A stretch of DNA of 64,000 bases from Xenorhabdus nematophila ATCC 19061 (GTDB taxonomy: Bacteria > Pseudomonadota > Gammaproteobacteria > Enterobacterales > Enterobacteriaceae). How positions within the stretch are numbered: position 1 is the first letter of the stretch; each line of letters opens with the position of its first letter. The stretch is taken from positions 91,328-155,327 of the forward strand of contig NC_014170.1 of NCBI RefSeq assembly GCF_000252955.1, given 5' to 3'. The notes below the pieces were generated by a model. The model made no database searches. It was not told the DNA's origin and saw nothing but the letters and a program-made list of their open reading frames with translations. The position numbers and the translations under genes are program-made. Shown here one piece after another: positions 8,014-30,653 of the stretch.

Positions 8014-8177
8014 TTATTCTAAATTTTTGATGGTTTTTGAAACTTTGGATATGGTATGTCTGGAACATCCCAATAAATAAACAATCGCGTTATAACTTTT
8101 TTTCTCTCTGAGAAGCCCTTCTATTTTTTGATGCAATTTTTTATCCACCGGGCGACCTTTATATTTACCTTCCTGTT
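8014..8177 (-). pseudogene. Resolvase C-terminal remnant
   Basis: The minus strand reads KQEGKYKGRPVDKKLHQKIE ... YLLGCSRHTISKVSKTIKNL-stop. This is the linker and C-terminal helix-turn-helix of a Tn3-type resolvase (GKYKGRP is the usual junction). The catalytic domain was removed when another Tn3 element landed at 8181. In the second copy the same remnant is split by IS982. Confidence 0.75.
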
Positions 8178-8180
8178 TAA

Positions 8181-8218
8181 GGGATTTGTGCCCTTCCCCT
8201 CGGAAAGTTCACTGTGCA
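8181..8218. repeat. Tn3-family terminal inverted repeat (tnpR end)
   Basis: GGGATTTGTGCCCTTCCCCT continues as CGGAAAGTTCACTG. It matches the tnpA-side end of the related complete element at 27556 (GGGGTTTGTGACCATTCCCT). The other end of this left element has been lost to the Qat transposon at 11770. Confidence 0.8.
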
Positions 8219-8221
8219 AAA

Positions 8222-8779
8222 TTAAATCATTTTTTTCAGCCGAAAGTAGGTCGCTCTGGATATTCCTGTTTTCTCCATCACCTCTTTCATCGAAATTTTC
8301 TGGGCTATCATTTTATTGGCTTCGGCTGTGCTTTTGTGCGGTTTTCGGCCAAACTTGACGCCTGATTCTTTCGCAAATTGGCGGCCTTCGTTGGTACGTT
8401 CAAGAATACGCTCACGCTCTGCTTCAGCAACCGCAGCCAAAATCTGGATCACCATTTTCCCCATTGTACCTTCAGTGCTGAGGTGGTTGTCCAAAAAACG
8501 AAGGGGAATTCCCTTTTTGTAGCAGTTATCGACAATTTTTATCATGTCAGCGGTATTCCGGCCTAAGCGATCCATTTTGGTGCAGATAATGGTATCGTCC
8601 CGTTCTGCTCTGGCCAGCAATTTTTTCAGTCCCTCTCTGTCGTCCGTTTTTCCAGTCATTTTATCCGTGAAGATCCGGTCTTCACGAACACCGGCCTGTT
8701 TCAGAGACGCAATCTGAATGTCAAGTTTCTGTTGTGAGGTGGATACCCTTGCATAGCCCAATAATGCCATTTTCGTCAT
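8222..8779 (-). CDS. tnpR: Tn3 resolvase
   Basis: A serine recombinase of about 185 residues. It has LGYARVSTSQQKLDIQ (catalytic Ser), TGKTDDREGLKKLLARA, CTKMDRLGRNTADM, the E-helix region EAERERILERTNEGR and a C-terminal helix-turn-helix (MKEVMEKTGISRATYFRLKK). It resolves cointegrates at the res site next to it. The frame opens at a GTG at 8791; the ATG at 8779 or 8770 is the likelier start. It is transcribed away from tnpA. It is identical to 30770-31327. Confidence 0.9.
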   Translation of the reverse strand: MTKMALLGYARVSTSQQKLDIQIASLKQAGVREDRIFTDKMTGKTDDREGLKKLLARAERDDTIICTKMDRLGRNTADMIKIVDNCYKKGIPLRFLDNHLSTEGTMGKMVIQILAAVAEAERERILERTNEGRQFAKESGVKFGRKPHKSTAEANKMIAQKISMKEVMEKTGISRATYFRLKKMI

Positions 8780-8784
8780 TCCCA

Positions 8785-8895
8785 GTATCACAAGTCGATC
8801 CTGATACCATCAAGTCTCATAACTTGAAAAAGAAGATTTTTGATACTTCCTTATGTGCGTTGTTATAGAGTATCAAATTTTACAAATTATGATAC
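8785..8895. promoter_or_regulatory. res site of a Tn3 element
   Basis: Five copies of TGATAC or GTATCA sit between tnpR and tnpA (8785, 8802, 8841, 8870, 8890), in pairs of opposite orientation. This is the layout of res subsites bound by resolvase dimers and of the divergent tnpA/tnpR promoter region. The same array is at 30654-30764. Confidence 0.72.
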
Positions 8896-8901
8896 CTGAA
8901 G

Positions 8902-11769
8902 ATGACAACTGACTGTACCAAGAAGAACGAAAAACGACTTCATATTTTAAACCCAAGTGAAGTCAGAGAATTGTATGAACGCCCTGTATTCAATCAGGCC
9001 GACAGAGAAGAATATTTTTCTTTAGACCCTTATACAACTAATATCGTTGCCGAACTGAATAAGCCGGAAACCCGGATCTATTTTATTTTGTTAATAGGCT
9101 ATTTTCGGGCTAAACCAGTCATTCCCAAATTTAACCTTAATGAAGTCGCCGAAGATGCTGAATACATCCGTAAAACTTACTTCCCGGATGAAAATCCAGA
9201 ATGGATGACTATGTCTAAAAGCACCCGTTCCAAACTCGTCAACAAAGCCCTCGACATCCTGAATTTTCAGCGTTTCACTGAGGCACATTATACTGTCCTG
9301 ATAACCCGTCTAAAAGATGTGGTAACAATCTGTACCGAACCCCGCTATATTTTTGATGAGACTCTGGCTTTTTTCGGCCAAAAGCGAATTGCACTTCCCG
9401 GTTACACCCGCTTGCAAGAGCTGGTGACTGAGGCGCTTATCGCAGAACAACAACGTATTGAAGCCATCCTTTCACAACAGATGTCTGAAGCGACTGCCGA
9501 CAAACTGAAACAGCTCCTTTCTACCAAAGGCTTACTTAACCGTCTATCCGCTTACAAAGGGACTGCCCGGGATTTTTCACCGTCTGAATTGGATCGAGAG
9601 CTGGAAACACATCTAACCATCAAGGATATCTACCCCGAACTGAAATCGTTGATGGGTTCATTAGGATTATCACAAGGCAACACCCTTCATTATGCGTCAA
9701 TCATAAAACATACTTCTGTTTATCAGGTTCGCCATTACCCACACTGGCAGGGCTTGCTGTATCTGACTTGCTATCTTTATTTTCGCTATCGGGAAACCAA
9801 TGACAAGTTGGTGATAGCTTTTTGTTACCTGACCCGTAAATATCATGAAGCCGCTAAAGCCTTTGCTAAGCAAAAAATAGCCGATGAACTGGAGCTGGTC
9901 AGGGAAAAGTTAAAATATGCCGGTGATATTCTCCACTACTTTGTTGACGAGAATGTCAGTGATGTCGTTGAATTTGGCGAAATTCGCCAGCAGGCTTTTA
10001 GCCTGATCTCGAAAGAGGAAATCCATGCCATCAGTCAACACTTGGGTAAAAACGATTTTGACCTTGCCGGTTACGAATGGGAGTATTTGGATAAACAATC
10101 CAGAAAAATTGCCAATTCACTTCGCAAGCTGTTTATCGCCATCGATATTGAATGTGAATCTGATCAGAAAGTACTGTCAGATCAGATTATGCTATCGAAA
10201 CATGAACTTGCTGGAAAACGAAAAATTATTACCACGCATCAGGAGATGTTAAAAAAAAGCGACCGTCGCTATCTCTGGATTAATGGTGAAGTTCATACAA
10301 AACGCTTTGAATTCTATCTGTATCAGAAAATCAGCAGACAATTAGATCGCGGTAAGGCTTACGTTACTGAAAGTGAGAAAAATAAACGACTGGAAGATGA
10401 CCTTATCCCGGTCAAAGACTGGGAAAATGACCAGATTAACCTCATCGAGAAAACCGGTTTACAACGGTTATCATCGCCGATTACTCAGACATTGAATGAA
10501 TTTGAAAAACGGCTTGAGCTGCACATGAATCAGGTTGCGGCGAGTATTTCTGGCGACACCAATGAATTTGTCAAATTACAGCCTCGCTCAAACCAGCTCG
10601 CGTGGACGTTAGCTAACCAACGTTGGCGCGATGACATTGATAACCCGATTTATAGTCAGATCAGGCACATGGGAATTATTGAGATTATGAATCATGTCAA
10701 TCGTAAAACGGGATTCCTTGGAGCTTTTAAAGGCATAGCCACCCGAAAACGGTGTACTAAAGCCGAAGCAGATGACTTAATCGCCTGCATTTTTGGCAAT
10801 GGCACTAATTATGGGCTTCACCGTATAGCGGCGATTTCAGATCGCAGCATTGGCGTTTTGCGGGGTGTCAACGATGCATTTGTCCGGCCTGAAACGATTA
10901 GTGCAGCCAATGACCTCATCTCTAATGGAATAGCCCGCCTGCCGGTTTTCAGGTACTACACCCTCAACGAATCATCGCCCTTCGGCAGTATCGATGGTCA
11001 GAAATATGCCTGTCGTATCAATACGTTTAAAGCCAGATTCTCGGCGAAATATTTCCGCAAGGGGAAAGGTGTTTCTGCAATGACATTGGTCTCCAATCAT
11101 GTTCCAATCAAAACAACCGTAATTTCACCGAATGAATATGAAGGGCACTATGCCTTTGATTTACTGTACAACAACAGCAGTGATATTCAGCCAAAATCGC
11201 TGGCAACGGATACGCATGGTATCAATAATGTCAATTTTGCTATTTTGGATCTGTTCGGTTATCAATTCTCGCCCCGTTATGCCCGGTTTAAACAGGCTTT
11301 TGCTGAACAATTTGAGGTCAATACAGGCACTGATATGACTATCAGCCTGAAAAAGCCCATCAAACGTAAATTAATCGAGCAGGAATGGGGAAATATTCAG
11401 CACATTATCTGTTCACTCAGCCGTAAAGTGACCCAGCAAAGTACCGTTGTCAAAAAGTTGTCCAATAACAAGCGAAATAACCGAACCTTGTTAGCCCTTC
11501 ATGAATACGACCGGTTGATTAAGTGTCTTTATCTGTTGGAGTATGTTGATAACAAAACGCTGGGGCAGTTTGTGCAACAAGCCCTGAATAGAGGAGAAGC
11601 CTATCACCAGTTACGCAGAGCGATTGCCTCGGTCAATGGCAATCAGTTCCGGGGTGGAAATGATTATCAAATTGAACAGTGGAATGACTGTGCCAGACTC
11701 ATTGCCAATTGTATTATTTATTACAATTCAGCCTTGTTGTCTGCATTAATTGAGAAGTTTCAGGAAGAA
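8902..11769 (+). pseudogene. tnpA: Tn3 transposase, 3' end replaced by the Qat transposon
   Basis: About 956 genuine residues of a Tn3-family transposase are present: DGQKYACRINTFKARF (first D), TDTHGINNVNF (second D) and NRGEAYHQLRRAIASV (E). After SALLSALIEKFQEE the frame enters the end of another transposon at 11770 and picks up 36 foreign codons. The relative at 27606-30647 continues about 55 residues further. The two proteins share their first 16 codons exactly and then differ in roughly one residue in ten. Loss of the C-terminus probably inactivates it. Confidence 0.88.
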
Positions 11770-11810
11770 GGGGTTGTAAGCGGGAAGCCGCCAAAATTTT
11801 GCGGGCTTGA

Positions 11811-14800
11811 CTATGACAACGTCAGTCCTTCAATCATGGCGTCCAGATCGAGTTCTTTCCCTTCACTGATAAAGGTGTAATGGCCGTTCAGAAAGATATG
11901 CTGCCAGGCTACGGGCGACATTCGTCTGAGAAGAGCAAGTCCCCGGGAGTTACCGACATTTTCATACTTCTGCAGCAACCGCGACAACAGGGCGGAGTTA
12001 TAATAAATAATAATGATGCTGAGCAGCCGCCCACACTGATTGCTGATTTCCAGCTCAATATCATTCTGACCTGTCAGCTCTTTTTTACCACCAACCTGCG
12101 CGATCGCTGAACGAAGCTGATGCCAGGATTCAATGCGATTTTGCGATCGATGGCTATTTCTGGCCACCTGCGGGTTACGAAGATACCGGAGAATGTAAAG
12201 ACTACGGATCAGTTTATCAAACTCAAACAAGGCCTTCCTTGTCGGGTTTTCCGCTGAATAGGTACACAGTTTGCGGATAAGTGCACCCTGAGTAATTTCT
12301 TTCATCCCCAGCGTGGCGACAATCTGGTCCAGGTGTGGTTTTTCATCAATGATAACTTTCTGATTTAACTGCCCTACAGGCCGGATAAAACATTTTTTAT
12401 AATGTTCCAGATCATCCGCGCAGTATAGTTCTTTCAGCATGTCCTCTGTCGAGGTAAAGCGGGGTTCGAAACGCAGGCCGAACCAGTGAAGAATGGCGAA
12501 ATTAGCCTTGTTAATACTGTGCATGTCACCGGTTATCGTCGTTGGTACAATCCCGCTGGTATTTCTGTACCAGATATCGAAAACATGATGTGCTTCATAC
12601 TCATGAGCCCCAATGAGATAACCATTGAGTGGAATATGGTTGCATAGCAGGGTGTAAGCCACCACGCCTTTCCCGAGCCCAAAATATTTTTTTGATGCAC
12701 GGGCTTTGATAGTCGGACGCTCAACGCTGAATTTTTGCCCATCGACAGCGCCATACAGCTCCCCTAACTCCAGGGAGTAATATGGGAAGACAGGAAGTGT
12801 CTTAATTCCGTCGCCAATGCAGTCACATGCTGCTTTCAGCGTGGAGAGACGCAGATATTGCTCGTAGGAATCATTGAGCGCATGGTAAGGAATGTCGCTG
12901 GTCTGGGACATCGTCAGATTACCGTGATTCATGGCCTGTGCCATTATTACCGCCATCAGGCTGTCTGCATCAGCTCCCGTTTTCACATACAGGGGTTGTA
13001 GCGGTGTCAGTGCCGACAAAAACTGGCACTGTTGATTAACGAAGCGAAAAATATCCGCCAACTCACACAGGGGCAGTTGTGAATAAAAATCCGTCACACT
13101 GTCCGATGGCCCTGTTAAATCCGACTTACGCCAGCTTAGTTTCTGTGTATTATGATCAAACTCCAGATGTGACAACTTACCCTGCTTAAGTTCTCTGTTG
13201 AACGCTATCCACTGGTCATGCAGTTCGCGGGCCAGTTCATCCAGTTGATGTTCGACCGGAGTACGTAAAAACGGGATATCCATCTGGGCCAGAATGTCGG
13301 ATTTTTCTTCTACGGAAACCAGCTCATCTGAAAGGTGGCGGTGCTGCAGGCTGTCATCAAGATAAAGTTCTCCTGCCTCCAGTCGTTTTCTGATTTGCCG
13401 GTAAAGCCAGAATTCATAGCGATCGGCATGAAGCCCTGTCGGCGTATCTTTTTCATCAATGCTCAATAACCAGATTCGCAGTCGTGGCGGGAGTGTGGCC
13501 GGAGGACATTCTGCTAGCGGTCGCTGCGTCAACCGCAACTGCTTAGAGAACGTCTCCCTGACCCATGTCAGTGCAGCAAGCTAGGGACATTCAGGCGTCA
13601 CACTGGAAAAATTCAGAGTACAAAACAGCGGCCGTAAATGGCGTCGTATATGAGCCACCTGAGTGTCAACCGCCTCCCATTGTCGTGCCATCCGACTGGC
13701 TGGTTTAACCCGCATTCGCTGTGCGGTGCTTTGAAGAGTTTCCCTGGGCATGATTTTCCAGGCTCGCTGGCGTACCTCACCAAAGGGGATGCTATCCGTC
13801 ACATCATCATCGACAAACAGGGATAACAGCCGACCGACTTTATTATTCTCCTGCTGCCGTTGCAGAACGTCTGCTTCAAAGTTTTTTCTGGCCTCTTCCT
13901 TGCAGCGTTCTTCGGTCTGCTTCATGTGCCATATCATGGCGCTGGTGAGGTTATCTGACAGCTGACGGTAGCGAAGCCAGATATAGCACGTCAGATATAA
14001 CCAGGTTTGTTCGGTTTTGAGGTTACGCAAATCATGGATGGTATAAAAGTTGACCAGACTGGCGAAGTACAGCAAATTTTGTTGCGAAATCCCGAGTCCG
14101 GGAAGTAATTGTCGAGCCTTCTGATATATCGGTGCCAGCTGGTTTCGTTTCTCCCTTTCCCTCGACATTTGCCGCCACCGAAAATCTTTCGCTTCCTGCT
14201 TCAACACAGCCAGTCCCGACAGCGCATCATCTTTCTTCAGAAGTGAATTCAGTGCGCTCTGTGTTTCTGTATCGAGGGAGGACAACAGTATTCCCGCCAA
14301 TCGCTGCCGCTCAGTTGACAGTGCTTTACTAATTATTTTCTGGAGTGTGGAATATCCTGGCCGAACGATTTTCTGTTCATTCAGCCAGCAGATAAGTTCG
14401 GTAGCAACAAATCCAGGGGTAATATCACGACGCACAATCTGCGCTGCGCGGGCATTCAACTGCGGGCCAACGGAGCCTGACCACTGACGGTACCCAAAGA
14501 AGTCGGTAATAAGCTTACGCTGGGCGTAATATTCATGGGTGGTAATAGTTCTGTCGGTAAGGGATACCTCACGAAAGTAACGCTGAACCACAAAATCGAA
14601 ATCACTTTCCACATCCTTCGGTGAAAAATGAAAGAAGGCGTGTTTGGCCTTAAAATAACCCGTTTGAAGGATACAATAAATCTGCGACAGTATTTCGGGG
14701 CGACTGTTTGCCAGCGCCAGCTCATTTGCCGTAAGCGACAAATACTCCAACTGCTGGCCTTCATCAAAGTCAGGCAGGCCATACAGTGCGAATTTTTCTG

Positions 14801-14852
14801 CATCCGTTAAAACGGTGAGTCTTTTACCTTTATCTTTTCGACGGGATGTCAT
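11811..14852 (-). pseudogene. tnpA: Tn3 transposase with an in-frame TAG
   Basis: Frame 14852-13584 encodes 423 residues (MTSRRKDKGKRLTVLTDAEK...) and ends at TAG 13581-13583. The same frame continues from the stop as LAALTWVRETFSKQLRLTQR to 11811, giving 1,013 codons in all. The second part carries the catalytic motifs AVDGQKFSVERPTIKARA, TGDMHSINKANFAIL and RIESWHQLRSAIAQ. One nonsense codon is therefore the only lesion seen. Unless TAG is read through or suppressed, the transposon cannot move by itself, though a related transposase could act on its ends. Confidence 0.9.
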
Positions 14853-15000
14853 CCTGACCTCGCACTGAATATGTCCGTAAGAGGATCGCTCTGCGGACGG
14901 TAAAAATTAAATTTGCGCTTCAGAGAAAATCACTGCTGACGTTGTCTCATATAACTGGTACGGTATCAATCTCTTTCACGGCTCCTTAAACGTACACTTT

Positions 15001-15576
15001 ATGACTGAAATACGGATTGGCTATGCCCGCTGCTCCACGGATAAACAGGATTTGACTGCCCAACAGGAAGCGTTGGTAAAACTCGGTGTCTCCCCGGACA
15101 GAATTTACATCGACAAAGGGCTGACGGGTTCAAACCGGCAAAGGCCTGGTCTGGATCAGGCACTAGCTGCCGTGCGTAGTGGAGACACGCTGGTTGTTCC
15201 CAAGCTTGACCGCCTGGCGCGTTCAGTACCTGACGCTCGTGAAATAGCTGATACATTGCAGTCCAGAGAAGTGAAACTGGCGCTTGGAACCAATATTTAT
15301 GATCCGGCAGACCCGATGGGGAAAATGTTCTTCAACGTACTGGCCACCTTTGCTGAATTTGAAGGCGACCTGATACGCCTGCGAACCCGGGAAGGCATGG
15401 CTATTGCGCGGGCGAAGGGGAAACTGAGGGGAAAACAACCAAAACTGTCTGAAAAACAACAAAAAGAGTTGTGCCGGATGCATGAAACCGGGCAGTACTC
15501 GATTAGCGATCTGGCTGAGTTGTTTTCAGTCTCAAGACCAACAGTCTACCGGACACTTTCAAGAGGGAAAAAATGA
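15001..15576 (+). CDS. tnpR: Tn3 resolvase of the Qat transposon
   Basis: A serine recombinase of 191 residues. It has RIGYARCSTDKQDLTAQQEA (catalytic Ser), DKGLTGSNRQRPGLDQALAA, PKLDRLARSVPDAREI, the E-helix region EFEGDLIRLRTREG and a C-terminal helix-turn-helix (ISDLAELFSVSRPTVYRTL). It looks intact and is divergent from tnpA; the 148-bp gap should hold res and both promoters. Its TGA overlaps the next gene's ATG. It belongs to a different subgroup from the 8222 resolvase. Confidence 0.92.
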   Translation: MTEIRIGYARCSTDKQDLTAQQEALVKLGVSPDRIYIDKGLTGSNRQRPGLDQALAAVRSGDTLVVPKLDRLARSVPDAREIADTLQSREVKLALGTNIYDPADPMGKMFFNVLATFAEFEGDLIRLRTREGMAIARAKGKLRGKQPKLSEKQQKELCRMHETGQYSISDLAELFSVSRPTVYRTLSRGKK

Positions 15577-15845
15577 TCGACTTAACCGCAGAACAGCGGC
15601 AGCTGGCAAAGATTGTCCATGATTATGCCTGTCGGTTTCCTCTGACAGAGAATGACGATACCCAGCTATTGCAGGGCTGTTATGACTATATGAATGCCTT
15701 TAAACGGGTGATGGACAGTGAGTCAAAAGTCCAGATGGATTACATCTGCCTGCAATATCCTGGGTATTTTCGCTTTGCAGTATGGATGGAACGAATGGCT
15801 CAGGGGATTGCTGATGGCGTTATTGAAGTTCCTAAAGATCACTAA
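15573..15845 (+). CDS. Small protein coupled to the resolvase
   Basis: Ninety residues (MIDLTAEQRQLAKIVHDYAC...), helical and mostly polar, with no signal peptide. Its ATG overlaps the tnpR stop by four bases (ATGA), which implies translational coupling. I do not recognise a function. Its place between the transposition genes and the qat cargo suggests it belongs to the transposon core rather than to the defence system. Confidence 0.65.
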   Translation: MIDLTAEQRQLAKIVHDYACRFPLTENDDTQLLQGCYDYMNAFKRVMDSESKVQMDYICLQYPGYFRFAVWMERMAQGIADGVIEVPKDH

Positions 15846-15992
15846 AAATTACGATCCGGAAATTTTGATGAATTTCAGCTTACTGCCTCAGGTTCGCGAG
15901 ATAGCTGAATCTAGAACTGTGTGCATCCTAGATAGACCTTATCAGGAGTGATTTGATGCTTTCAATAGTCGAAAAAAATAAGGGGTAAACAG

Positions 15993-17777
15993 ATGTGGTC
16001 AGACAAGGAATCATCAGAAGATTACCTAAATTTTGGAGAAGTATCCCAATTAGCCGTCGATGTGCTCACTACCGAAGGTATGTTACCAGTATCGATAGGC
16101 ATTTTTGGTAATTGGGGTGCTGGCAAATCCTCACTCTTGAAACTGATAGAGCAAAAACTTGAGAAAGATGATAAGGATTGGATTGTTATCAACTTTGACT
16201 CCTGGCTCTATCAAGGTTATGACGACGCTCGAGCTGCGCTTCTTGAAGTTATAGCTACATCATTGACGAAAGCTGCGGATGGGAATGCCTCCATCGTCTC
16301 AAAAGCGAAGAAACTCCTTAGTCGGGTAGATGGATTTAGGGCAATGGGGTTCTTGGCTGAAGGAGCGGCTTTATTTGCCGGAGTTCCTACTGGGGGCTTT
16401 CTTGCTAGAGGTTTGGGAGCATTAAGAAATGTTTCAGATGGAATACAAAGTCAGGAAGAGTACGAAGATTTAGGCAATCTGGCTAAAGAAAGTAAGGAGA
16501 AGGTTGGTAATTTGCTCAAGCCAGAGGTGAAAAAAAGCCCTCCTCAACAGATTGAAGCTTTCCGTAAGGAATATGGGGAAATTTTAGAAGAGCTTGGTAA
16601 GCCACTTATAGTGATAATAGATAATCTTGATCGCTGCCTCCCTGCTAACGCTATTCATACGCTTGAAGCTATCAGGTTATTCCTTTTCTTAACTAATACT
16701 GCCTTTATCATTGCAGCAGATGAGGACATGATTCGTTCTTCTGTGTCTGATTACTTCAAGGGGGCATCACAGCGCCATCAGATAGATTATCTCGATAAGC
16801 TCATCCAGGTTCCTATTCGGGTGCCAAAAGCTGGAGTGCGTGAGATTCGTTCATATCTGTTCATGCTTTATGCTATTGAACATGGCTTAAAAGGCGAAAA
16901 ACTTACCAATCTCCGTGATGGTTTAGAAAGGGCATTACAGCATTCCTGGAAAGATGAACCAATCTCACGCCAGGACGTCCTGAAAATGACTGGTGAATCC
17001 GAGGATAGTAATCTAGCTTTGGCATTTGCACGTGCGGACCGTATTGCTCCTGTATTAGCGAACTCTCCAATAATCCATGGCAATCCCAGAATCGTTAAGC
17101 GTTTGCTGAATGTTGTGAAAATGCGTTCTCAAATTGCTAAGCGACGAGCAATGCCTTTGGATGAAGCAATTATCACTAAGTTAGTAATCTTTGAACGATG
17201 TGTCGGAGTAGATGGTACTGCTGATTTATATCACCTCGTGGATATTGAACAAGGTATGCCCCAGCTACTAAAACAGCTTGAGGATACTAACGGTCAAGTA
17301 CCTTCGGAAGCGCCAAAGACATGGACTGATAATCCAACAACTAAAGCTTTCATTGCTCAATGGGCTCAGCTTGAACCGCGCCTTGGTGGAATTGATTTGA
17401 GAGCCGCTATATACCTATCCAGAGAAACTATGCCAATAGGTGCATATGTGGTCGGTTTATCACCATCTGGACGGGAAGTACTGAATGCACTTATTGAACT
17501 GAAAAATACCAGTTCTCCTACAGCAGAAGACCTTTTGAAAACGCTTCCTCGTGAAGAGCAAGTACCTGTAATGGAAGGTTTAATTAGCCAATTAAGGCAA
17601 GTGTCAGATTGGGCTCGTAAACCTAAGGGTTTTTCCGGTGCATGCCTCTTAGCCCGCCATTCGGCAGATGCGGCCAGTATATTAATTCGTTTTTTGCAGG
17701 AGTTGCAACTGGGGATGAAACGGCCAGCGTGGATGACTGCAGCACTAAAAGATGAGCAATGGAATAAGGACGCTTAA
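15993..17777 (+). CDS. qatA: QatA, KAP-family P-loop ATPase of the Qat system
   Basis: A 594-residue KAP NTPase. Walker A is GNWGAGKS at residues 39-46; Walker B is PLIVIIDNLDRC at about 204-215. Between them lies a Gly/Ala-rich stretch (about 113-145, AMGFLAEGAALFAGVPTGGF) that KAP proteins often use for membrane contact. In Qat systems (established: qatABCD protects against phages) QatA is the ATPase subunit, with an unknown trigger. The start ATG follows AAGGGG by 5 bases. The stop overlaps the qatB ATG by one base. It is preceded by about 150 bp with no gene, which should hold the qat promoter. Confidence 0.92.
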   Translation: MWSDKESSEDYLNFGEVSQLAVDVLTTEGMLPVSIGIFGNWGAGKSSLLKLIEQKLEKDDKDWIVINFDSWLYQGYDDARAALLEVIATSLTKAADGNASIVSKAKKLLSRVDGFRAMGFLAEGAALFAGVPTGGFLARGLGALRNVSDGIQSQEEYEDLGNLAKESKEKVGNLLKPEVKKSPPQQIEAFRKEYGEILEELGKPLIVIIDNLDRCLPANAIHTLEAIRLFLFLTNTAFIIAADEDMIRSSVSDYFKGASQRHQIDYLDKLIQVPIRVPKAGVREIRSYLFMLYAIEHGLKGEKLTNLRDGLERALQHSWKDEPISRQDVLKMTGESEDSNLALAFARADRIAPVLANSPIIHGNPRIVKRLLNVVKMRSQIAKRRAMPLDEAIITKLVIFERCVGVDGTADLYHLVDIEQGMPQLLKQLEDTNGQVPSEAPKTWTDNPTTKAFIAQWAQLEPRLGGIDLRAAIYLSRETMPIGAYVVGLSPSGREVLNALIELKNTSSPTAEDLLKTLPREEQVPVMEGLISQLRQVSDWARKPKGFSGACLLARHSADAASILIRFLQELQLGMKRPAWMTAALKDEQWNKDA

Positions 17778-18529
17778 TGGGAACTTCACAATCAAGTACA
17801 GGTCCAGGTGGTGGTTCTCCACTAGTTCCACCTTGGGCTGATGATCAGCCACAGCAACCCTTGCCCCCGCCACAAGAAAGAAGGTTTGCGCCGTTCCGGG
17901 AATCTTTGGGAAATGCGGTTTTAAACGGTAATAGAGCAGACTTCAGAAAAGCTATAGGGCATTACGCGCGAAAAGCCTCTGGAGGGAGCGGTAGTGCAGC
18001 TCGACGATTAGGGAGTGTCACACAGGCAGGGGGCGGATTGTTTGGGGCATTGGCGGGAATGCCTGCGGCTCCAGGAGAACCAAGCATTGATTTGGGCAGT
18101 TTGGCTGGCCTTCCATGCGAAATGGCAATATCAGCTATTGCTCAAGCTTTAACATCACAGGATGGTGATTCAGAAAAGATTTGTGCAGCCATGAACCATG
18201 CCTTAGTGGAGGCTCTCGATGGTGTAGCAATCTTCGATCCCCAAAAAATAACTGATGGTGTGATCGTTGACACAATGATTTGTTATCTAGCTGAAAGCAT
18301 TTTTCTGCAAATGGTCATGGATTCTAACAAGGCATGGAATAAAGCAGATACTCCTTCAAAAGCCATCCATGCAGAAACTGAACTTCGAGAATTGATCAAA
18401 GTTGTTGTTGATAAGCATATGGCTCCAAAACTTGTCGGTAACATCAGAACTTTTTCGAAAAATCAAATGATTAATATTGAGCGTCAGGTAATCATTGAGG
18501 CTTGGCAAGAATGGGAGGCTTACCAATGA
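17777..18529 (+). CDS. qatB: QatB, Qat system subunit
   Basis: This 250-residue protein starts MGTSQSSTGPGGGSPLVPPW, a Gly/Ser/Pro-rich N-terminus seen in QatB proteins. It has a Gly-rich middle (about 70-110, RRLGSVTQAGGGLFGALAGM) and a helical C-terminal half. No catalytic motif is visible. Its molecular role is not established; it is required with the other three genes in characterised Qat systems. Starts and stops overlap on both sides (TAATG before, ATGA after), so the four genes form one tightly coupled operon. Confidence 0.88.
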   Translation: MGTSQSSTGPGGGSPLVPPWADDQPQQPLPPPQERRFAPFRESLGNAVLNGNRADFRKAIGHYARKASGGSGSAARRLGSVTQAGGGLFGALAGMPAAPGEPSIDLGSLAGLPCEMAISAIAQALTSQDGDSEKICAAMNHALVEALDGVAIFDPQKITDGVIVDTMICYLAESIFLQMVMDSNKAWNKADTPSKAIHAETELRELIKVVVDKHMAPKLVGNIRTFSKNQMINIERQVIIEAWQEWEAYQ

Positions 18530-19830
18530 CACAATTAGTTTTCCATCATGATCATCGTCTCTTACCGTCAGCAGGTGATAGCTTGTTGCCCGTACAGCTC
18601 TATGGATTAAGCGGGCAGGGTCGGGGTGATATATCTATTATTGGGAATCCTGCGATTGATCGAATTAAGCGCTTGGGAGTCAAAATTCCAGCTCAGGTCA
18701 TGGATTTTTTGAGCATCGCACTAGCGGTTACAGCCGCCGATACCTTCGTTCAGCGTGAAAGCTCTGAGGATGGTTGGACTCGCCAATTCTCGTTACGACT
18801 TCCCCTTCATGAGCCATCTCGATGGATTGCTCTTAAGAAGGAGCTTGAAAGCGCTTTGCATTTCCTTAGTGGAGACATCTGGGATTTTGAATTTTGTAAC
18901 GGTGGTTATGTACCACCAGAACCGTATAGCCAGCATTCAAAATTTCATCTGATTAAACTCAAAGATCTTGACTGCGTCAGCTTATTTTCGGGCGGATTGG
19001 ATTCGGCTATTGGCGCAATAGATCTTCTTGCAGCAGGGCGTGCCCCGCTTTTGGTTAGTCATGCTTATAAAGGAGACAAGTCACGCCAAGATCAGATTGC
19101 TGAAAAATTAAATGGTCGATACTCACGGTTTGAAATTAATGCTGATCCGCATATATATCAAGGTGATACTGAGATTACGATGCGAACGCGTAGCCTCAAT
19201 TTTCTTGCCTTTGCGGCTGTTGGCGCTTGTGCTGTACAAGAAGTATCTCAACAAGAAAAGGTCGATCTGTTTGTGCCTGAAAATGGGTTTATCTCGCTAA
19301 ATGCGCCACTAACCCCACGAAGGATAGGTACGCTGAGCACACGAACTACACATCCACATTTTATTACGAGCGTACAAAAGCTCTTTGATGCGGCCGGTAT
19401 TCCTTGCCAAATAATCAATCCATATCAGTTCAAAACAAAGGGGCAAATGGCCTCCCAATGCTTGAATAAGCAACTATTATCTGAAGTCGTGGAAAGTACA
19501 GTATCTTGCAGTCATTGGAAACGCCGGAATCAGCAGTGCGGAGTGTGTGTACCGTGCATCATTCGACGGGCATCGCTTCATGCTGGGGGGATTGATAAAG
19601 ACGCTGATTATACTTTTCAGTCCCTAGCTAAAGTAATAAATGAAATTGATCGCAGGGATGATCTCATGGCTCTTAGGATTGCGATCGCACAGAAATCGAC
19701 TTTGAAAATAGGAACATGGATCGCCAAAAGCGGTCCTTTGCCTACGGCAACATTCAATAATTTTAAGCAGGTGTTTATAGACGGCCTGGATGAGGTCGAA
19801 AGCTACTTACTAAGTGAGAGCATAGTGTGA
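18526..19830 (+). CDS. qatC: QatC, QueC-like PP-loop enzyme of the Qat system
   Basis: The ATG at 18526 overlaps the qatB stop (ATGA) and gives 434 residues. The centre carries the PP-loop SLFSGGLDSAIGAIDLL (about residues 152-168), which binds ATP in QueC-type enzymes. The C-terminus has a zinc-type cysteine cluster, CSHWKRRNQQCGVCVPCIIR. QueC makes 7-cyano-7-deazaguanine; in Qat the QueC-like protein is thought to modify another target, which is not settled. The cysteine set is intact, so the protein is probably functional. Confidence 0.92.
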   Translation: MTQLVFHHDHRLLPSAGDSLLPVQLYGLSGQGRGDISIIGNPAIDRIKRLGVKIPAQVMDFLSIALAVTAADTFVQRESSEDGWTRQFSLRLPLHEPSRWIALKKELESALHFLSGDIWDFEFCNGGYVPPEPYSQHSKFHLIKLKDLDCVSLFSGGLDSAIGAIDLLAAGRAPLLVSHAYKGDKSRQDQIAEKLNGRYSRFEINADPHIYQGDTEITMRTRSLNFLAFAAVGACAVQEVSQQEKVDLFVPENGFISLNAPLTPRRIGTLSTRTTHPHFITSVQKLFDAAGIPCQIINPYQFKTKGQMASQCLNKQLLSEVVESTVSCSHWKRRNQQCGVCVPCIIRRASLHAGGIDKDADYTFQSLAKVINEIDRRDDLMALRIAIAQKSTLKIGTWIAKSGPLPTATFNNFKQVFIDGLDEVESYLLSESIV

Positions 19831-20552
19831 GCATCGATATGCACTGTCATCTCGACTTATATTCTCAGCCAGAACAAGTGGCTGAGGAATGCAAGCGTCG
19901 AGGGACTTATATACTGTCGGTTACAACGACACCTAGAGCATGGCATGGGACCTCTTCACTAGCCAAAGGAAGCCAACGAATCCGAACAGCTCTTGGGCTT
20001 CATCCCCAAATAGCACATCAAAGATCGCATGAGTTAGAGCTATTTGATTCACTGCTTTCGGAAACTAGGTACATTGGCGAAATAGGGCTTGATGGTGGTA
20101 AGGGATTTAAAGAGCATTGGGACATCCAGTTGAAGGTATTCCGACACATACTCAATAACGTAAATCGTGCTGGAGGCAAGATTATGACTATCCATAGCCG
20201 AGGAAGTGCGTCAGTTGTCCTCGATGAGATCGAAAATATTGATGGGGTAGCAGTATTGCATTGGTTCACAGGGACACCTAAGCAGCTTGAAAGGGCAATC
20301 GATTTAGGGTGTTGGTTTTCAGTGGGGCCAGCAATGCTCGATACAATAAAGGGAAAGTCCTTAGCTTTGAAAATTCCCAAATCACGCATTCTTACAGAAA
20401 CAGATGGGCCATTTGGTAAGTTTCGTAATGACCCACTAATGCCATGGGACAGTGAGATTGCAGAGAAGCAGCTAACCACATTATGGGACATGAGCCAGAT
20501 GGAGGTTAAAGCTCAGCTTTTTGAAAATTTTAGAGAGTTATGTAAATTGTAA
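19827..20552 (+). CDS. qatD: QatD, TatD-family metal-dependent nuclease
   Basis: A 241-residue TatD-like hydrolase. It has the HxH motif in IDMHCHLDLY (residues 3-12), the metal ligand in YIGEIGLDGG, a histidine in IMTIHSRGS, another in VLHWFTGT and the acidic motif ILTETDGPF. The predicted start is the GTG overlapping the qatC TGA (GTGA). The ligands expected for TatD DNases are all present. It closes the operon; the transposon end follows 40-80 bp later. Confidence 0.9.
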   Translation: MSIDMHCHLDLYSQPEQVAEECKRRGTYILSVTTTPRAWHGTSSLAKGSQRIRTALGLHPQIAHQRSHELELFDSLLSETRYIGEIGLDGGKGFKEHWDIQLKVFRHILNNVNRAGGKIMTIHSRGSASVVLDEIENIDGVAVLHWFTGTPKQLERAIDLGCWFSVGPAMLDTIKGKSLALKIPKSRILTETDGPFGKFRNDPLMPWDSEIAEKQLTTLWDMSQMEVKAQLFENFRELCKL

Positions 20553-20631
20553 AATATCGTGGATATCCGTTGCCATATCATGCTGGAACACCACGCTGAC
20601 AAAATTTTGGCGGCTTCCGGCTTACAACCCC

Positions 20632-20892
20632 AAAATCGCTTAAAAAAACAGGCCGTGCAACCAGTTCAAGCCCAGCATTACCAAACTCATCAATTTTCAG
20701 CACCGCCAATCCGGTTTTAACAAATTCATTCACTGCGGCTTTATTCGATGTAATATCATGACCAGTATATAGATTTGTATTCGTGTCATAGGTGGAATTA
20801 TCAGAAAAACTCAATGGACGTTGTTTTACGTGGGCGGACGCTATGGCTACTATCAAACTAAAAAACGAATTAGAATTTTGCATTTTTAGCAT
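20632..20892 (-). pseudogene. Truncated gene for a possibly exported protein
   Basis: An ATG at 20892 opens MLKMQNSNSFFSLIVAIASA, a weak signal-peptide-like start. About 70 polar residues follow (YDTNTNLYTGHDITSNKAAV ... LELVARPVFLSDFG), after which the frame runs into the Qat transposon end at 20631. The last part of the reading frame (VVSRKPPKFCQ) is transposon sequence. I do not recognise the family. The 3' portion was not found elsewhere in the window. Confidence 0.5.
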
Positions 20893-20935
20893 TGCAAACA
20901 CCTTTAACTAAAATCTAGTGATATGGGGCAATGGG

Positions 20936-21811
20936 TTAAATCTTGGAATAACTATCCATAAACAGTCCACTATCCGAACTTTTAAGTGATGTAAGTGGAA
21001 AGTCGTCATCCAAACTGGAATAGTCTATAAAAAACCAATCAATAGGAGTATTTAATGCAATGGCAATAATGACTAAATCAGTCGAAGTTATTCTTTTCTT
21101 CCCTGTTTCATATCTGGATAATGTTTGTTGGTTCATGCCAGCCTGTTTAGCCAAGCCCTGTAAGGTGACATTCAGTTTCTTTCTCCGTACACGGATGCGT
21201 TGACCAATATTTTTAGCCATCATCTCTAATTCTGGTTTATCCATGATTTTGGTCGGTGTAGTCGGTAAATGACTAGAAGTGTTCACCTCTAAATCAGGGT
21301 GGCAATCTATAAAAAACCAACTGATCGGAATACCTAGAGCAAGAGCGATGTTCACCAAATGATCTATATGTATTCTATTTTTCCCGTGTTCATTCCTGGA
21401 TATTTGTTGTTGAGACAAGCCAACACTGAGACCTAAAGCCGCAGCTGTTAACATCATGGTTTTCCGCCATATCTGGATGCGTAAACCAATATTTTTAGTA
21501 ACCGCACCTGTTGTTAATGTGTCCATAATAAAACCATCTGATACATGCGGCAGCTTACTGGCATTGCTCACATATAAATCAGAGTATAAATCGATAAAAA
21601 ACCACCCAGTCGGAGTATTCAATCCAGCAGAGATTTGGATCAAATGAGACAACGGGATGTCATCCAACCCTGTTTCATACATGATTAACTGTGCTTCCGA
21701 GATCCCGGTATGTTGAGCTAAAGTGTGAGTCGATAATCCCGCCTCTTTTCTCCGTATACAGACACGTTGACCAATACTTTTAAAAAACACATCCAACATT
21801 GCTTTATCCAT
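20936..21811 (-). CDS. Protein of three tandem XRE helix-turn-helix domains
   Basis: The 291 residues hold three Cro/CI-type units: about 10-75 (IGQRVCIRRKEAGLSTHTLA), 107-170 (IGLRIQIWRKTMMLTAAALG) and 202-262 (IGQRIRVRRKKLNVTLQGLA). Each unit ends in a matching hydrophobic strip (TGWFFID, ISWFFID, IDWFFID). Normal XRE regulators have one such domain and act as dimers, so this looks like a fused array, perhaps binding three half-sites or acting as a decoy. There is no effector domain. It is divergent from another XRE gene at 22236. Confidence 0.85.
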   Translation of the reverse strand: MDKAMLDVFFKSIGQRVCIRRKEAGLSTHTLAQHTGISEAQLIMYETGLDDIPLSHLIQISAGLNTPTGWFFIDLYSDLYVSNASKLPHVSDGFIMDTLTTGAVTKNIGLRIQIWRKTMMLTAAALGLSVGLSQQQISRNEHGKNRIHIDHLVNIALALGIPISWFFIDCHPDLEVNTSSHLPTTPTKIMDKPELEMMAKNIGQRIRVRRKKLNVTLQGLAKQAGMNQQTLSRYETGKKRITSTDLVIIAIALNTPIDWFFIDYSSLDDDFPLTSLKSSDSGLFMDSYSKI

Positions 21812-22235
21812 TAAATTCTCTATGAAAACGGTTTGCTATTCTGGTGTTACATTCAGACAGCAAAAATAATTTACTTGGGAGTAACGCCTCGGCGCTTTCT
21901 ATTAATCTTTGGGAAGACAAAGCGATGTCTCCCAAACATAAAACCCGTTAAAAATTCATAAAAAACCCCTGTAAAAACAGGGGAATATAGGATAGATGGT
22001 TAAATATTATATTGAGAGTTGTTTCGGGTAAAACTACTGGTATTGTCATAGAAACTAGTTCAACAGCTACATTGTGTTATCATAACAAATTGAAACTAAT
22101 TTTTTCCCTGATGAAAATGTAACTGATTATACAAATTGTCGTACGGATACGGTGATGAATCCATGTAACTAACACTAATAGATATATTTTATAAAAAACT
22201 GGAACTTTTAGTCCTCTGAAAAGGATTTTGTAATA
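21812..22235. other. Intergenic region between two divergent XRE genes
   Basis: 424 bp with no credible gene. It is AT-rich and contains one hairpin (21966-21983), entered separately. The two XRE promoters should lie here; I could not fix their boxes with confidence. Confidence 0.4.
21966..21983 (-). terminator. Rho-independent terminator on the minus strand
   Basis: CCCCTG-loop-CAGGGG, followed on the minus strand by a run of six T. No minus-strand gene is visible to its right, so it may end a short untranslated transcript started within 21990-22235, or be a leftover. Confidence 0.55.
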
Positions 22236-22646
22236 GTGATAGAAAATAGTCAAGCTAAAACTATTCAAAAAAATATATACATGAATGCAAATAGGTTAAT
22301 CGAAGCCCGAAAATTCCGAGGATTATCACAACGGGAGCTAGGAGAGGCATTGGGGATCACTGACTCAGAGACAGCGGGGCAACACATCAGTAAATATGAG
22401 CGTGGCGTGAGGTTACCGCCATACAAGACCGTCCGTGAGATCGCTAAAATATTGGATATGCCCCCTTGTTATTTTTATATTGATGATGATGATTTATCCG
22501 CCGAAGAGGTGCAAATTTTCTATGAAAAATGCCTTTCTCATAAATCGGAAAGACGCTTCATTTCTGACCTTATAGAAAAAAATCAGGAATATGAAAAAGT
22601 GATCAATAGCATAAAGAAAACGGTAAATTCGGTAAAAACCTCCTGA
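22236..22646 (+). CDS. XRE family transcriptional regulator
   Basis: This reading frame of 136 residues has one helix-turn-helix (ANRLIEARKFRGLSQRELGE, about 18-80) ending in MPPCYFYIDDDDLSAEE, and a short coiled-coil tail rich in Lys and Glu. The GTG at 22236 follows AAAAGGA by 10 bases; an ATG at 22281 is an alternative. It probably represses its own or the divergent promoter. A strong terminator follows. Confidence 0.78.
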   Translation: MIENSQAKTIQKNIYMNANRLIEARKFRGLSQRELGEALGITDSETAGQHISKYERGVRLPPYKTVREIAKILDMPPCYFYIDDDDLSAEEVQIFYEKCLSHKSERRFISDLIEKNQEYEKVINSIKKTVNSVKTS

Positions 22647-22665
22647 GATAGATACACTCTCAACT

Positions 22666-22706
22666 ATATTACCCTTATTCATGCCAAGTATGAATAAGGG
22701 TAATAT
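22666..22706 (+). terminator. Terminator hairpin after the XRE gene
   Basis: A perfect 17-bp stem (ATATTACCCTTATTCAT and its complement) with a 7-base loop, 20 bp past the XRE stop. The tail is AT-rich but not a pure T-run. The long symmetric stem could also act in both directions. Confidence 0.65.
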
Positions 22707-22840
22707 AATTCAATGCGTTATAACTAAAATTTACTTCCAGCCTTTTTAGCGTATTGCAGCTAGGTAGTATCCAATAAAATATCCCTTACCAAAAACGTCT
22801 TACGACAGGGCTGACAGAGGTAACAGCGACGATTGAGCAT

Positions 22841-23025
22841 GCAGCAGATGCAATGGAGCCAGCAAGGTGCGCATTACTTACTCCAGACCCGCACAGCCGT
22901 ACTTAATGATGATTTGAAAACCCAATTTGAGCATTGGTATCCGGGCATAAAATTAGGTGACGAAACGGAGCATTCTTGGACAGAAAAGATTGCTGCATAA
23001 GTGCCCCACAGATTTTTATGGTCTC
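22841..23025 (+). pseudogene. ISKra4 family transposase, C-terminal remnant
   Basis: The sequence encodes QMQWSQQGAHYLLQTRTAVL ... KIAA-stop, the last 50 or so residues of the intact transposase at 36869-38269. It then runs through the element's right end (GTGCCCCACAGATTTTTATG, to 23025). The upstream part is missing. It abuts a Tn3 transposase fragment. Confidence 0.82.
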
Positions 23026-23243
23026 GTACAAATGGGGTCGGTTCCGGCTGGGGGCGAAATGACCCCCATAAGAATGAAGTTCACCCTGGAGTTAACAGAC
23101 CAGCCTTGCGGGGTTACCTGATACTCCGTATCGGATAAAGTGAAATAGTATTCTCGTTCCGCCAAAGTAAATCGAGGCAGGCCAAAATAGTCCTGAATTT
23201 CAGGCTGGGTCAGTATAGTCAGGCGCTTTTTATTGGTATTCAT
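23026..23243 (-). pseudogene. tnpA: Tn3 transposase, N-terminal fragment
   Basis: About 70 codons starting MNTNKKRLTILTQPEIQDYF, then GLPRFTLAEREYYFTLSDTE. This matches the start of Tn3-family transposases (compare LTDAEKFALYGLPDFDEGQQ at 14852). It is cut by the ISKra4 end. With the res-like palindrome, KilA-N gene, resolvase and terminal repeat to its right, it marks one more Tn3 element. Confidence 0.8.
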
Positions 23244-23375
23244 TTTTTTAATTCTTAATATGGCAGGGCTACATTGAGTATGTCACTTTATACTTTCCTT
23301 ACTACCTTTAATAGACATAGATTTATATACAGTTTATATTACATCTTTCCCTCCGTATTTAGGCTCAAACAAGGC

Positions 23376-23403
23376 TGTCATTTAAACGTTCGTTTAACTG
23401 ACA
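23376..23403. promoter_or_regulatory. 28-bp palindrome, likely resolvase crossover site
   Basis: TGTCATTTAAACGT facing its near-complement TCGTTTAACTGACA: 12 of 14 positions pair. It is centred between the divergent tnpA fragment and the kilA-N/tnpR pair, 25 bp before kilA-N. Size and placement fit subsite I of a Tn3 res site, which would also control both divergent promoters. Confidence 0.65.
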
Positions 23404-23427
23404 CATCAAAAGCGAGAAGAAAGGTTT

Positions 23428-24258
23428 ATGGCGCAAAAAATTGATGTCCGGGGTATAAAAGTCTCTGTCTTTTCCGACAAACAAGATGACTATATATCGC
23501 TATCAGACATCGCCAAGTACAAAGATGGCGACCGCGGTGATTACATTCTGCAAAACTGGATGAGAAACCGCAGCACCATTGAGTTTATCGGTTTGTGGGA
23601 ACAGCTCCATAATCCCGATTTTAATTCCATCGAATTCGATGGATTTAAACATGAAGCGGGCGCAAACAGTTTCTCTCTCACGCCAAAACGCTGGATCACA
23701 ACCACCCATGCAATAGGGATCATCTCGAAAGCGGGCAGATATGGCGGAACTTATGCGCATCGGGATATTGCTTTTGAGTTTGCTTCCTGGATCAGCGCGG
23801 AGTTTAAGCTCTATCTATTAAAAGAATTCCAGCGGCTCAAACAAGCAGAAAATGAACAGAAAAATCTGGAATGGAATGTTTCGCGCACTCTGGCCAAGGT
23901 CAACTATCATATTCATACAGAGTCAATAAAAACGAACATTATTCCCGCCCTGGAGCTTAACCCAAAAGCAAGAAATTTTGCTTATGCTAATGAGGCCGAT
24001 ATATTGAATCTGGCGTTGTTTGGCAAGACAGCCAGTGACTGGCGCAAAGAGAACCCGGAACTAAAAGGCAATATACGGGACTATGCCACACTGGAACAGC
24101 TTGTCGTGTTATCTAATTTAGAAAGCTTCAATGCTGAACTTATCGGACAAGGCCTCTCTGCAAACGACAGGTTCCAAAAGCTGAATCGCGTTGCGGTCAG
24201 TCAAATGGAGATCCTGATAGAAAACAAATCCATTGAAAAACTTAAACAATTAAAATAG
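23428..24258 (+). CDS. KilA-N domain protein
   Basis: 276 residues. The N-terminal 130 match a KilA-N DNA-binding domain: DDYISLSDIAKYKDGDRGDY, then NSFSLTPKRWITTTHAIGII, GGTYAHRDIAFEFASWISAE and FKLYLLKEFQRLKQAE. KilA-N proteins are found mainly in phages and plasmids as DNA-binding regulators. The C-terminal half is helical (ATLEQLVVLSNLESFNAELI). The gene shares its promoter region with a Tn3 res site and is 7 bp from the resolvase gene, so it looks like a transposon-borne passenger or accessory protein. A second KilA-N remnant is at 35851. Confidence 0.85.
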   Translation: MAQKIDVRGIKVSVFSDKQDDYISLSDIAKYKDGDRGDYILQNWMRNRSTIEFIGLWEQLHNPDFNSIEFDGFKHEAGANSFSLTPKRWITTTHAIGIISKAGRYGGTYAHRDIAFEFASWISAEFKLYLLKEFQRLKQAENEQKNLEWNVSRTLAKVNYHIHTESIKTNIIPALELNPKARNFAYANEADILNLALFGKTASDWRKENPELKGNIRDYATLEQLVVLSNLESFNAELIGQGLSANDRFQKLNRVAVSQMEILIENKSIEKLKQLK

Positions 24259-24265
24259 GCCGTTC

Positions 24266-24877
24266 ATGCGAATTGGGTATACCCGTGTCTCCAAATCTGA
24301 TGGAAGTCAGGTGCAGGATCTCCAACTGGATGCTTTACTTGCTGCCGGTGTCAATAAAGAAAACATCTATCAGGATGAAATATCCGGGAAATCAGACAAA
24401 CGTCCTGGATTGGATGCCTGTTTGAAAGCCCTCAGGTCTGGCGATGTGTTAATGGTATGGAAGCTTGACAGGCTTGGCCGAAGCTTAAAACACCTGGTGA
24501 ACACTATCCATGATCTTGCGGACCGAAAAATCGGATTTAAGGTACTGACCGGGCAGGGTGCAGAAATTGATACGACGACGGCCAGTGGCAAATTGGTCTT
24601 TGGGATTTTTGCCGCGCTGGCCGAATTTGAACGGGAGTTGATCAGTGAACGAACAAAAGCAGGGCTGGCAGCGGCCAGAGCAAGAGGACGTGAAGGTGGA
24701 CGTTCTTTTAAACTCACAAAATCTCAGGTTCGCCTGGCACAGGCTTCTATGAAAAGTAGGGATTGTAGCGTATCTGAATTATGTGAAGAGCTTGGAATTA
24801 GCAGACAGGCTCTCTATAAGTATGTAGGGCCAGATGGGGAACTCAGAGAACACGGCAAAAGAGTATTAAAATCTTAG
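24266..24877 (+). CDS. tnpR: Tn3-type resolvase
   Basis: A serine recombinase of 203 residues. It has RIGYTRVSKSDGSQVQDLQL (catalytic Ser), DEISGKSDKRPGLDACLKAL, WKLDRLGRSLKHLV, TTTASGKLVFGIFAALAEFE, RELISERTKAGLAAARARGR and a C-terminal helix-turn-helix (SVSELCEELGISRQALYKYV). All expected motifs are present. It is co-oriented with the KilA-N gene seven bases upstream. Confidence 0.92.
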   Translation: MRIGYTRVSKSDGSQVQDLQLDALLAAGVNKENIYQDEISGKSDKRPGLDACLKALRSGDVLMVWKLDRLGRSLKHLVNTIHDLADRKIGFKVLTGQGAEIDTTTASGKLVFGIFAALAEFERELISERTKAGLAAARARGREGGRSFKLTKSQVRLAQASMKSRDCSVSELCEELGISRQALYKYVGPDGELREHGKRVLKS

Positions 24878-27472: not shown

Positions 27473-27555
27473 CTAAATATAATATTCTCTTTCAATAAAA
27501 GTACCGATGACTTTCTCATGCATTTCCGGCGATTTTGAATAGCCCAATGTTTTAG
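27473..27555 (-). pseudogene. insB: IS1 InsB C-terminal remnant
   Basis: The minus strand encodes KTLGYSKSPEMHEKVIGTFI then EREYYI-stop, matching the InsB C-terminus of IS1 (the FSKS-E-HEKVIG signature). The rest was removed when a Tn3 element landed; the Tn3 end starts at 27556. Confidence 0.7.
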
Positions 27556-27605
27556 GGGGTTTGTGACCATTCCCTCGGAAAGTTCACTCCCCCACTAATT
27601 CATGA

Positions 27606-30647: not shown

Positions 30648-30653
30648 CTTCAG

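Follow-up and report, generated by a model that had tools for sequence, protein, structure and literature searches.

A complete Qat anti-phage operon within the ends of a Tn3-family transposon on a plasmid of Xenorhabdus nematophila

Tn3 elements are the classic means by which resistance genes pass between plasmids and chromosomes, and the locus described here raises the question of whether a member of this family also carries an anti-phage defence system. The locus lies in a 64,000-nucleotide stretch of the insect-killing bacterium Xenorhabdus nematophila ATCC 19061 (NC_014170.1, positions 91,328 to 155,327), referred to here as the window, in which a sequence-only reading had proposed a complete Qat system carried by a Tn3-family transposon on an IncA/C-like conjugative plasmid. 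The observation of a Qat operon within Tn3 ends was confirmed in this study, and the interpretation placed on it was partly supported. The Tn3-type unit that holds qat spans 8,862 bp, with inverted repeats enclosing tnpA, tnpR, a gene of 90 amino acids (aa) and the operon. We consider it highly probable that this unit is a replicative Tn3-family transposon with complete qatABCD as its only cargo besides the 90-aa accessory gene, and that it arose by the steps set out below.

The stretch 15993-20552 was confirmed as an intact, complete qatABCD operon with the following genes.

15993-17777, plus strand: qatA, KAP-family P-loop ATPase (PADLOC PDLC02210, E = 0, 1079.9 bits; PF07693, 1.7e-53)
17777-18529, plus strand: qatB, with an N-terminal MGTS motif (PADLOC PDLC02212, 3.6e-125)
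18526-19830, plus strand: qatC, QueC-like, with a Zn-type Cys cluster (PADLOC PDLC02214, 1.9e-138; PDB 9zee, 3.7e-64)
19827-20552, plus strand: qatD, TatD-like nuclease (PADLOC PDLC02215, 1.4e-97; PDB 9xsn, 6.6e-76)

The four genes stand in A-B-C-D order with overlapping frames, each matching its own PADLOC Qat model, as had been read from the sequence; for QatA and QatB the best models are PDLC02210 and PDLC02212, and other Qat models score far lower. Window 7770-24631 is identical over 16,862 bp, flanks included, to plasmid II of Xenorhabdus nematophila AN6/1, where the same qatC start (18526) is annotated. The defence-profile search that had been suggested as a check assigned all four proteins to Qat by PADLOC, and the NCBIfam equivalog cut-offs are passed by QatC and QatD only, which fits the AN6/1 annotation of qatA as 'P-loop NTPase fold protein' and of qatB as 'hypothetical protein'. 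Judged by profile scores, the window Qat is of the same family by PADLOC and of a divergent branch by NCBIfam.

The following motifs were found in the Qat proteins: Walker A (GNWGAGKS at 39) in QatA, MGTS at the start of QatB, SGGLDS at 155, STRTTH at 271 and the cysteines 328/338/341/344 in QatC, and DMHCHLD at 4 in QatD. Further structural relatives are PDB 9vlk for QatC (1.6e-56) and 9vll for QatB (1.6e-9). When aligned to 9zee, whose chain numbering agrees with Gao et al. 2026, the QatC motifs fall on S156/S161, T278/T280 and C334/C354/C357/C360. In the studied system, QatBC alone protects against lambda-vir, and defence is abolished by mutating QatC S156/S161, T278/T280 or QatB G2 (PMC13279940). 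N-terminal modification of QatB was proposed in the same work by analogy with Cap9, the reaction not having been reconstituted (PMC13279940), and the window motifs MGTS, SGGLDS, STRTTH and CGVCVPC match those found there to be important by mutation or structure. By analogy with these homologues, QatC would bind QatB and act on its N-terminal glycine in an ATP-dependent manner; the core would be QatBC, its response widened or regulated by the DNA-binding KAP ATPase QatA and the TatD nuclease QatD. The window Qat may therefore protect against phage as the studied systems do.

The features that make up the remainder of the unit are listed below.

11770-11807 (core 11770-11801), plus strand: left terminal inverted repeat, at the tnpA end; homology with X. 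szentirmaii starts exactly at 11770
11811-14852, minus strand: tnpA, Tn3-family transposase, with an in-frame TAG at 13581-13583; open reading frame (ORF) pieces of 575 and 423 aa
14853-15000, no strand: spacer separating the divergent genes tnpA and tnpR, presumed res site from Tn3 anatomy
15001-15576, plus strand: tnpR, serine resolvase (PF00239, 1.6e-40; PF02796, 7.9e-11)
15573-15845, plus strand: 90-aa transposon gene, overlapping tnpR by 4 bp and accompanying tnpR and the right repeat in relatives
20594-20631 (core 20600-20631), minus strand: right terminal inverted repeat, the present right end, pairing with the left core

The two arms are complementary at 31 of 32 nt (97%) and coincide with the boundary of homology in X. 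szentirmaii, so the terminal repeats placed earlier at 11770 and 20631 do enclose the unit. Membership of the Tn3 family was drawn from a DDE_Tnp_Tn3 transposase in two pieces (NF033527, 2.5e-143 and 1.3e-71; PF01526 / PF13700), a serine resolvase, and long terminal repeats that start with GGGG at both ends and bound the homology. It was rested on TnpA, TnpR and ends because a target duplication is the sign of a recent insertion and later rearrangement can remove it. The family assignment of the sequence-only reading held on these grounds, but that reading had missed both the tnpA stop, at which AN6/1 carries the same bases, and the lack of a target duplication, as well as the former right end beside the 90-aa gene and the replaced allele in X. 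szentirmaii, which are described below. Its description of qat as sole cargo was borne out, as nothing else is present apart from the 90-aa gene, which belongs to the transposon. An intact transposase is absent from the window copy, and the unit was filed as a disabled Tn3 member. Because of the in-frame stop and the missing 5-bp duplication the window copy is probably stranded, and movement by its own transposase is unlikely given the stop codon.

The suggested search for other insertions with the same ends returned one at another site. In Xenorhabdus szentirmaii DSM 16338 (L013), the unit is present end to end (8,856 bp; 96% identity across all 8,862 positions), sharing both ends but not the flanks; genome G026 gave the same match. 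The alignment runs from 11770 to 20634 and stops at most 3 bases past the repeats (3 past the right one). The X. szentirmaii TnpA is open over 1,013 aa, all four of its Qat proteins match PADLOC, and Pfam usefully named none of the seven flanking genes, giving one weak Spectrin match. AN6/1 was ruled out as an independent insertion by its identity with the window through the flanks. This second site bears on the suggestion that qat belongs to the plasmid itself, or to an older island, and lies by accident between two related Tn3 ends that define no unit. The lack of a target duplication, the richness of the region in Tn3 pieces and the placement of most encountered qat copies in other vehicles would agree with such an accident, which is nevertheless contradicted by the recurrence of the same genes and ends between unrelated flanks with an abrupt stop of homology, and we regard it as very improbable.

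A unit with real ends might still have passed from one of the two Xenorhabdus species to the other through transfer of a plasmid and homologous recombination at flanking repeats, rather than by its own transposition. Both copies lack a target duplication, the window tnpA is broken, and a recombined block described below shows that recombination has been active at the locus. Against this, homology breaks off at the terminal repeat on either side, perfect 5-bp duplications flank five of the lineage's bounded elements, and the X. szentirmaii transposase gene is open, which makes spread by recombination quite unlikely.

How qat came to lie inside the unit is suggested by the place where the right end normally stands. 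Among 31 loci with the 90-aa gene, 20 (the window and X. szentirmaii among them) show a repeat copy with at most 11 mismatches in 32 at 9-13 nt past its stop; hence this gene normally abuts the right end, and the comparison assigns it to the transposon. The 90-aa protein is called 'arylsulfatase regulator' in some public annotation, has no PADLOC, NCBIfam or Pfam match at 1e-3, shows 88% mean column identity over 22 sequences and is perhaps a regulator of transposition. The copy of the repeat that follows it in the window is the following.

15858-15889, minus strand: decayed terminal repeat where the ancestral element would have ended, 12 nt downstream of the 90-aa gene, matching at 21 of 32 nt

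In both Xenorhabdus units this decayed inner repeat (11 mismatches) is followed by qat and then by a second, good repeat. Six of the 127,936 window 32-mers are equally good, itself included, three of them at or overlapping the true ends. Two further repeat-like 32-mers (at most 11 mismatches), at 7941 and 32599, lie in the cargo of older Tn3 copies.

Other defence systems begin beyond the same point in relatives. In Photorhabdus bodei LJ24-63 (L067, 259-7507), a perfect inner repeat and a complete Thoeris system lie within outer repeats flanked by a TTATT duplication. Thoeris membership was drawn from the presence of both ThsA (SIR2-STALD; 5.5e-199) and ThsB (TIR; 1.3e-89), and a second ThsB-like protein was matched at 1.2e-56, with STALD, SIR2 and TIR domains recognised. 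The tnpA of this element is 62% identical to that of Enterobacter asburiae and its tnpR 94% identical to the window's, pointing to a module exchange near res. In E. asburiae PN4, GDFQ9D152 and genome G059, a decayed repeat of a second type is followed by an EcoRII-like methylase/endonuclease pair (MTase_II, 2e-154; EcoRII-C-type restriction endonuclease). These restriction-modification (R-M) loci (L008 2530-10099, L124, L169) come from two E. asburiae plasmids and one further genome; PN4 and GDFQ9D152 are 99.9% alike over the R-M part, and no left repeat occurs in the stretch fetched for GDFQ9D152. The same backbone without cargo was found in Shewanella (L007, L012). The tnpA of the cargo-free element of Shewanella profunda (L012, 1358-5478) reads as two ORFs of 305 and 727 aa.

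Because Thoeris and R-M in these relatives begin beyond the same point as qat, the right end has apparently shifted outward past defence operons. The decayed repeat could instead be a chance match, with qat having entered by recombination or with a second element since lost and without any new right end. Eleven of its 32 positions differ, and the R-M remnant is recognisable against the second repeat type only. Its position and orientation are nevertheless as expected, its edit distance of 11 was reached by none of 1,000 mononucleotide shuffles of the same 60 nt, and the P. bodei inner repeat is perfect at the same place, so that a chance match appears unlikely.

Our preferred explanation, a transposon that gained qat as cargo, draws directly on the observed gene content, ends, unit at a second site, broken tnpA, decayed former right end and two other defence systems in relatives. 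We infer the following course. The right end of the ancestral element would have directly followed the 90-aa gene; gain of another right repeat beyond an adjacent defence operon, while the old one decayed or remained silent, would have turned that operon into cargo. A functional sister copy, not the window copy, would have done the moving, and the window copy would now simply be carried along by its IncC-type plasmid, unless mobilised in trans by another transposase. Operon alleles would have been swapped between vehicles by homologous recombination, as in X. szentirmaii. A wider proposal, which we hold tentatively and at somewhat less than even chances, is that this Tn3 lineage serves as a defence shuttle: by repeatedly passing its old right end it may have packaged Qat, Thoeris and type II R-M independently, with alleles refreshed by recombination with chromosomal operons, thereby linking plasmid and chromosomal defence pools.

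Several observations weigh against the preferred explanation. The 5-bp flanks of the window unit (AAGAA / AAAAT) form no target duplication and none is present in X. szentirmaii, so that neither qat copy is a clean insertion. The vehicle is rare in the sequences searched: among 30 genus genomes 14 have any match and two the full unit, and 113 of 72,556 plasmid records match, with at least 80% coverage in one, AN6/1. QatA and QatB miss their NCBIfam cut-offs (396.5 bits versus 600 and 76.3 versus 100), and the solved Qat structures are distant from the window branch (QatC 220 bits over 389 aa, QatB 40.8 bits), so that the function assigned to it is inferred. Three cargo types underlie the moved-right-end model, and 11 of the 31 loci have no repeat at 11 or fewer mismatches. 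Six of these 11 were shuffled: the remnant of the three R-M loci was equalled by 81-120 of 1,000 shuffles against the first repeat type and by 2-3 against the second; L148 and L150 were equalled by none against the first type, and L155 by 13 against the second and 479 against the first.

The two Xenorhabdus units differ in their operons. Window and X. szentirmaii are 99.3-100% identical in tnpA, tnpR, the 90-aa gene, qatD and the tail, and 89.1%, 95.4% and 92.3% identical in qatA, qatB and qatC. Judged by informative sites, the changeover falls at window 16143-16164 and 19626-19638, which delimits a 3.46-kb block (16164-19626) of qatA-C; within it, individual sites that agree with the window are in the minority. 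Inside this block X. szentirmaii is 98.8% identical to the E. coli JX2 chromosome and 90.5% to the window; outside it, the identities are 86-88% and 99.6-100%, respectively. Because JX2 and E. coli ET734 stay alike in all three segments (99.4, 94.9 and 93.7%), the alignments identify X. szentirmaii as the recombinant, its qatA-C block replaced by a JX2-like allele; JX2 itself was ruled out in that role, as it remains 93.7-99.4% alike to ET734 throughout while X. szentirmaii switches partner. Such a block is sequence evidence of defence alleles crossing between vehicle types. No E. coli genome among the 5,426 searched, other than JX2, carries this allele at 95% or more; the JX2 allele is donor-like for the block, and among 295 family genomes it was matched only in the window's own and in G142 (90%).

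The chromosomal operons of JX2 and ET734 belong to the same Qat branch, with 86-90% DNA identity to the window by segment, and their matches do not include the ends of the qat unit. In JX2 the operon lies in an island at ssrA with integrase, AlpA and Gp2-type genes; the neighbours in ET734 are similar, with Gp2-type genes and no integrase in the stretch shown. An integrase gene also lies beside qat in G142, as judged by eye from the ORF, and on a Shewanella ANA-3 plasmid (L133) qat stands beside two site-specific integrases, a locus that is perhaps GInt-like by comparison with PMC10121019.

Defence cargo recurs in this lineage but is not its only cargo: 4 of 19 bounded elements carry it. The count covered loci above 4 kb whose TnpR is at least 85% identical, 30 loci at 27 distinct places (L094/L173, L104/L158 and L106/L160 hold the same place twice); loci of 4 kb or less were left out, as were 13 that were repeat retrievals or fragments of X. 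szentirmaii, AN6/1 or the genome to which the window belongs. The sample is what the searches fetched and is not random. Facing repeats were found in 19 distinct elements, with a perfect 5-bp duplication in five; where several repeat pairs were possible, the script preferred a pair with duplication. By profile searches and record annotations, the cargo is Qat in two (window, L013), R-M in one (L008), Thoeris in one (L067), other genes in six (L009, L011, L014, L086, L127, L130) and little or nothing in nine (L007, L012, L123, L125, L126, L128, L129, L149, L160), L126 being a 1.1-kb fragment. Elements with a GNAT acetyltransferase and SMR transporter, small lipoprotein-like ORFs or insertion sequences (IS) ruled out defence as the only cargo, and 24 ORFs from the non-defence elements, with the IS-type ORFs of L127 and very short ORFs left out, had no PADLOC match at 1e-3. 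The cargo of the Vibrio qingdaonensis element (L086, 5729-11322) is a 381-aa protein with weak DnaJ similarity below the Pfam cut-off.

Beyond the genus, the unit was matched in part. Among the 5,426 E. coli genomes 289 match and none covers 80% or more of it; in phage records the backbone was found in 2 of 50,697 at 65.5% identity, and the exact terminal repeat occurred in no stretch of the viral contigs. The repeat pattern with up to three mismatches is present in 10 of the 295 family genomes, with a facing pair in the window's own only. Five single repeats (L182-L186) have no tnpA, tnpR or 90-aa gene within the 17-19 kb taken.

We take the plasmid of the window to be XNC1_p itself. XNC1_p has been counted among IncA/C plasmids, and its acr1-vcrx147-acaDC-acr2 activator cluster has been reported absent (PMC4207636). 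MOB-suite typed the AN6/1 twin, as distinct from the window, as IncC, MOBH, MPF_F and conjugative. Conjugative spread is uncertain because of the reported absence of that cluster (PMC4207636), though the twin is called conjugative. The 'clear route for spread' claimed from the sequence could not be upheld, with tnpA stopped, no target duplication at either qat copy and conjugation in doubt.

The left end of the qat unit falls within an older element on this plasmid, of which the interrupted gene is the following.

8902-11769, plus strand: tnpA of the older Tn3 element that hosts the insertion, its 3' end missing on the right side

Window positions 5454-11768 and 27781-35117 are inverted copies of this older element plus cargo, forming a mosaic pair that is 100% identical over 2.6 kb and 91% identical over 3.7 kb; the second copy has an additional stretch of about 1 kb (about 31500-32514). 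On contig C1 the final 230 bp of the inverted sister (27551-27780) recur only as 38-bp repeat matches, and contig C2 has a single copy at 99%, so the part of the older element severed by the qat unit was not located on the plasmid. The simplest reading of the right side is an adjacent deletion or recombination. Among the 30 genus genomes, 26 have some match to the right flank (20632-23400), and its first 390 bases were matched by the window's own genome only in this search for an empty site. A protein with three HTH_3 matches is encoded at 20936-21811. An Rfam scan of window 8000-36000 gave no match and a tRNA scan found none.

Qat and the Tn3 family are both known; neither their combination nor this route of cargo gain seems to have been described in the literature searched. 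Among the matches listed from the open-licence literature, no Tn3-family transposon with Qat, Thoeris or other defence cargo was found described, which is weak evidence. The earlier suggestion that the vehicle may be new is thus supported within the searches made, with the addition that this vehicle extends beyond Qat to Thoeris and R-M. If the lineage does package and swap defence operons, a single transposition event could let a plasmid acquire or swap immunity, and more such units could be found directly from the repeats at their boundaries.

Tn7-like transposons differ from Tn3 in transposase, targeting and ends. The nearest precedents are their defence cargo, an E. coli defence-island survey (PMC10121019), and qatABCD in integrative and conjugative elements and integrative and mobilisable elements of Vibrio europaeus (PMC12824646). 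Like the present lineage, Tn7-like transposons mobilise R-M, Thoeris and other defence systems, and 'Qat' occurs zero times in the paper on them (PMC8649781). The qat unit shares with Tn3-family transposons the DDE TnpA, the divergent serine TnpR, long repeats starting with GGGG and related elements with 5-bp duplications. It differs in that its cargo is phage defence; the Tn3 passengers named in the accessible part of PMC7157771, where the words 'phage' and 'restriction' occur zero times, serve antibiotic and metal resistance, virulence and catabolism. With the known Qat system (PMC13279940; PMC13329287, accessible part) the window operon shares gene order, overlapping frames, a KAP ATPase, QatB with MGTS, a QueC-like QatC with SGGxDS, Thr-Arg-Thr and four Cys, and a TatD-like QatD; it differs in QatA and QatB that score under the NCBIfam cut-offs and in being carried by a Tn3 unit.

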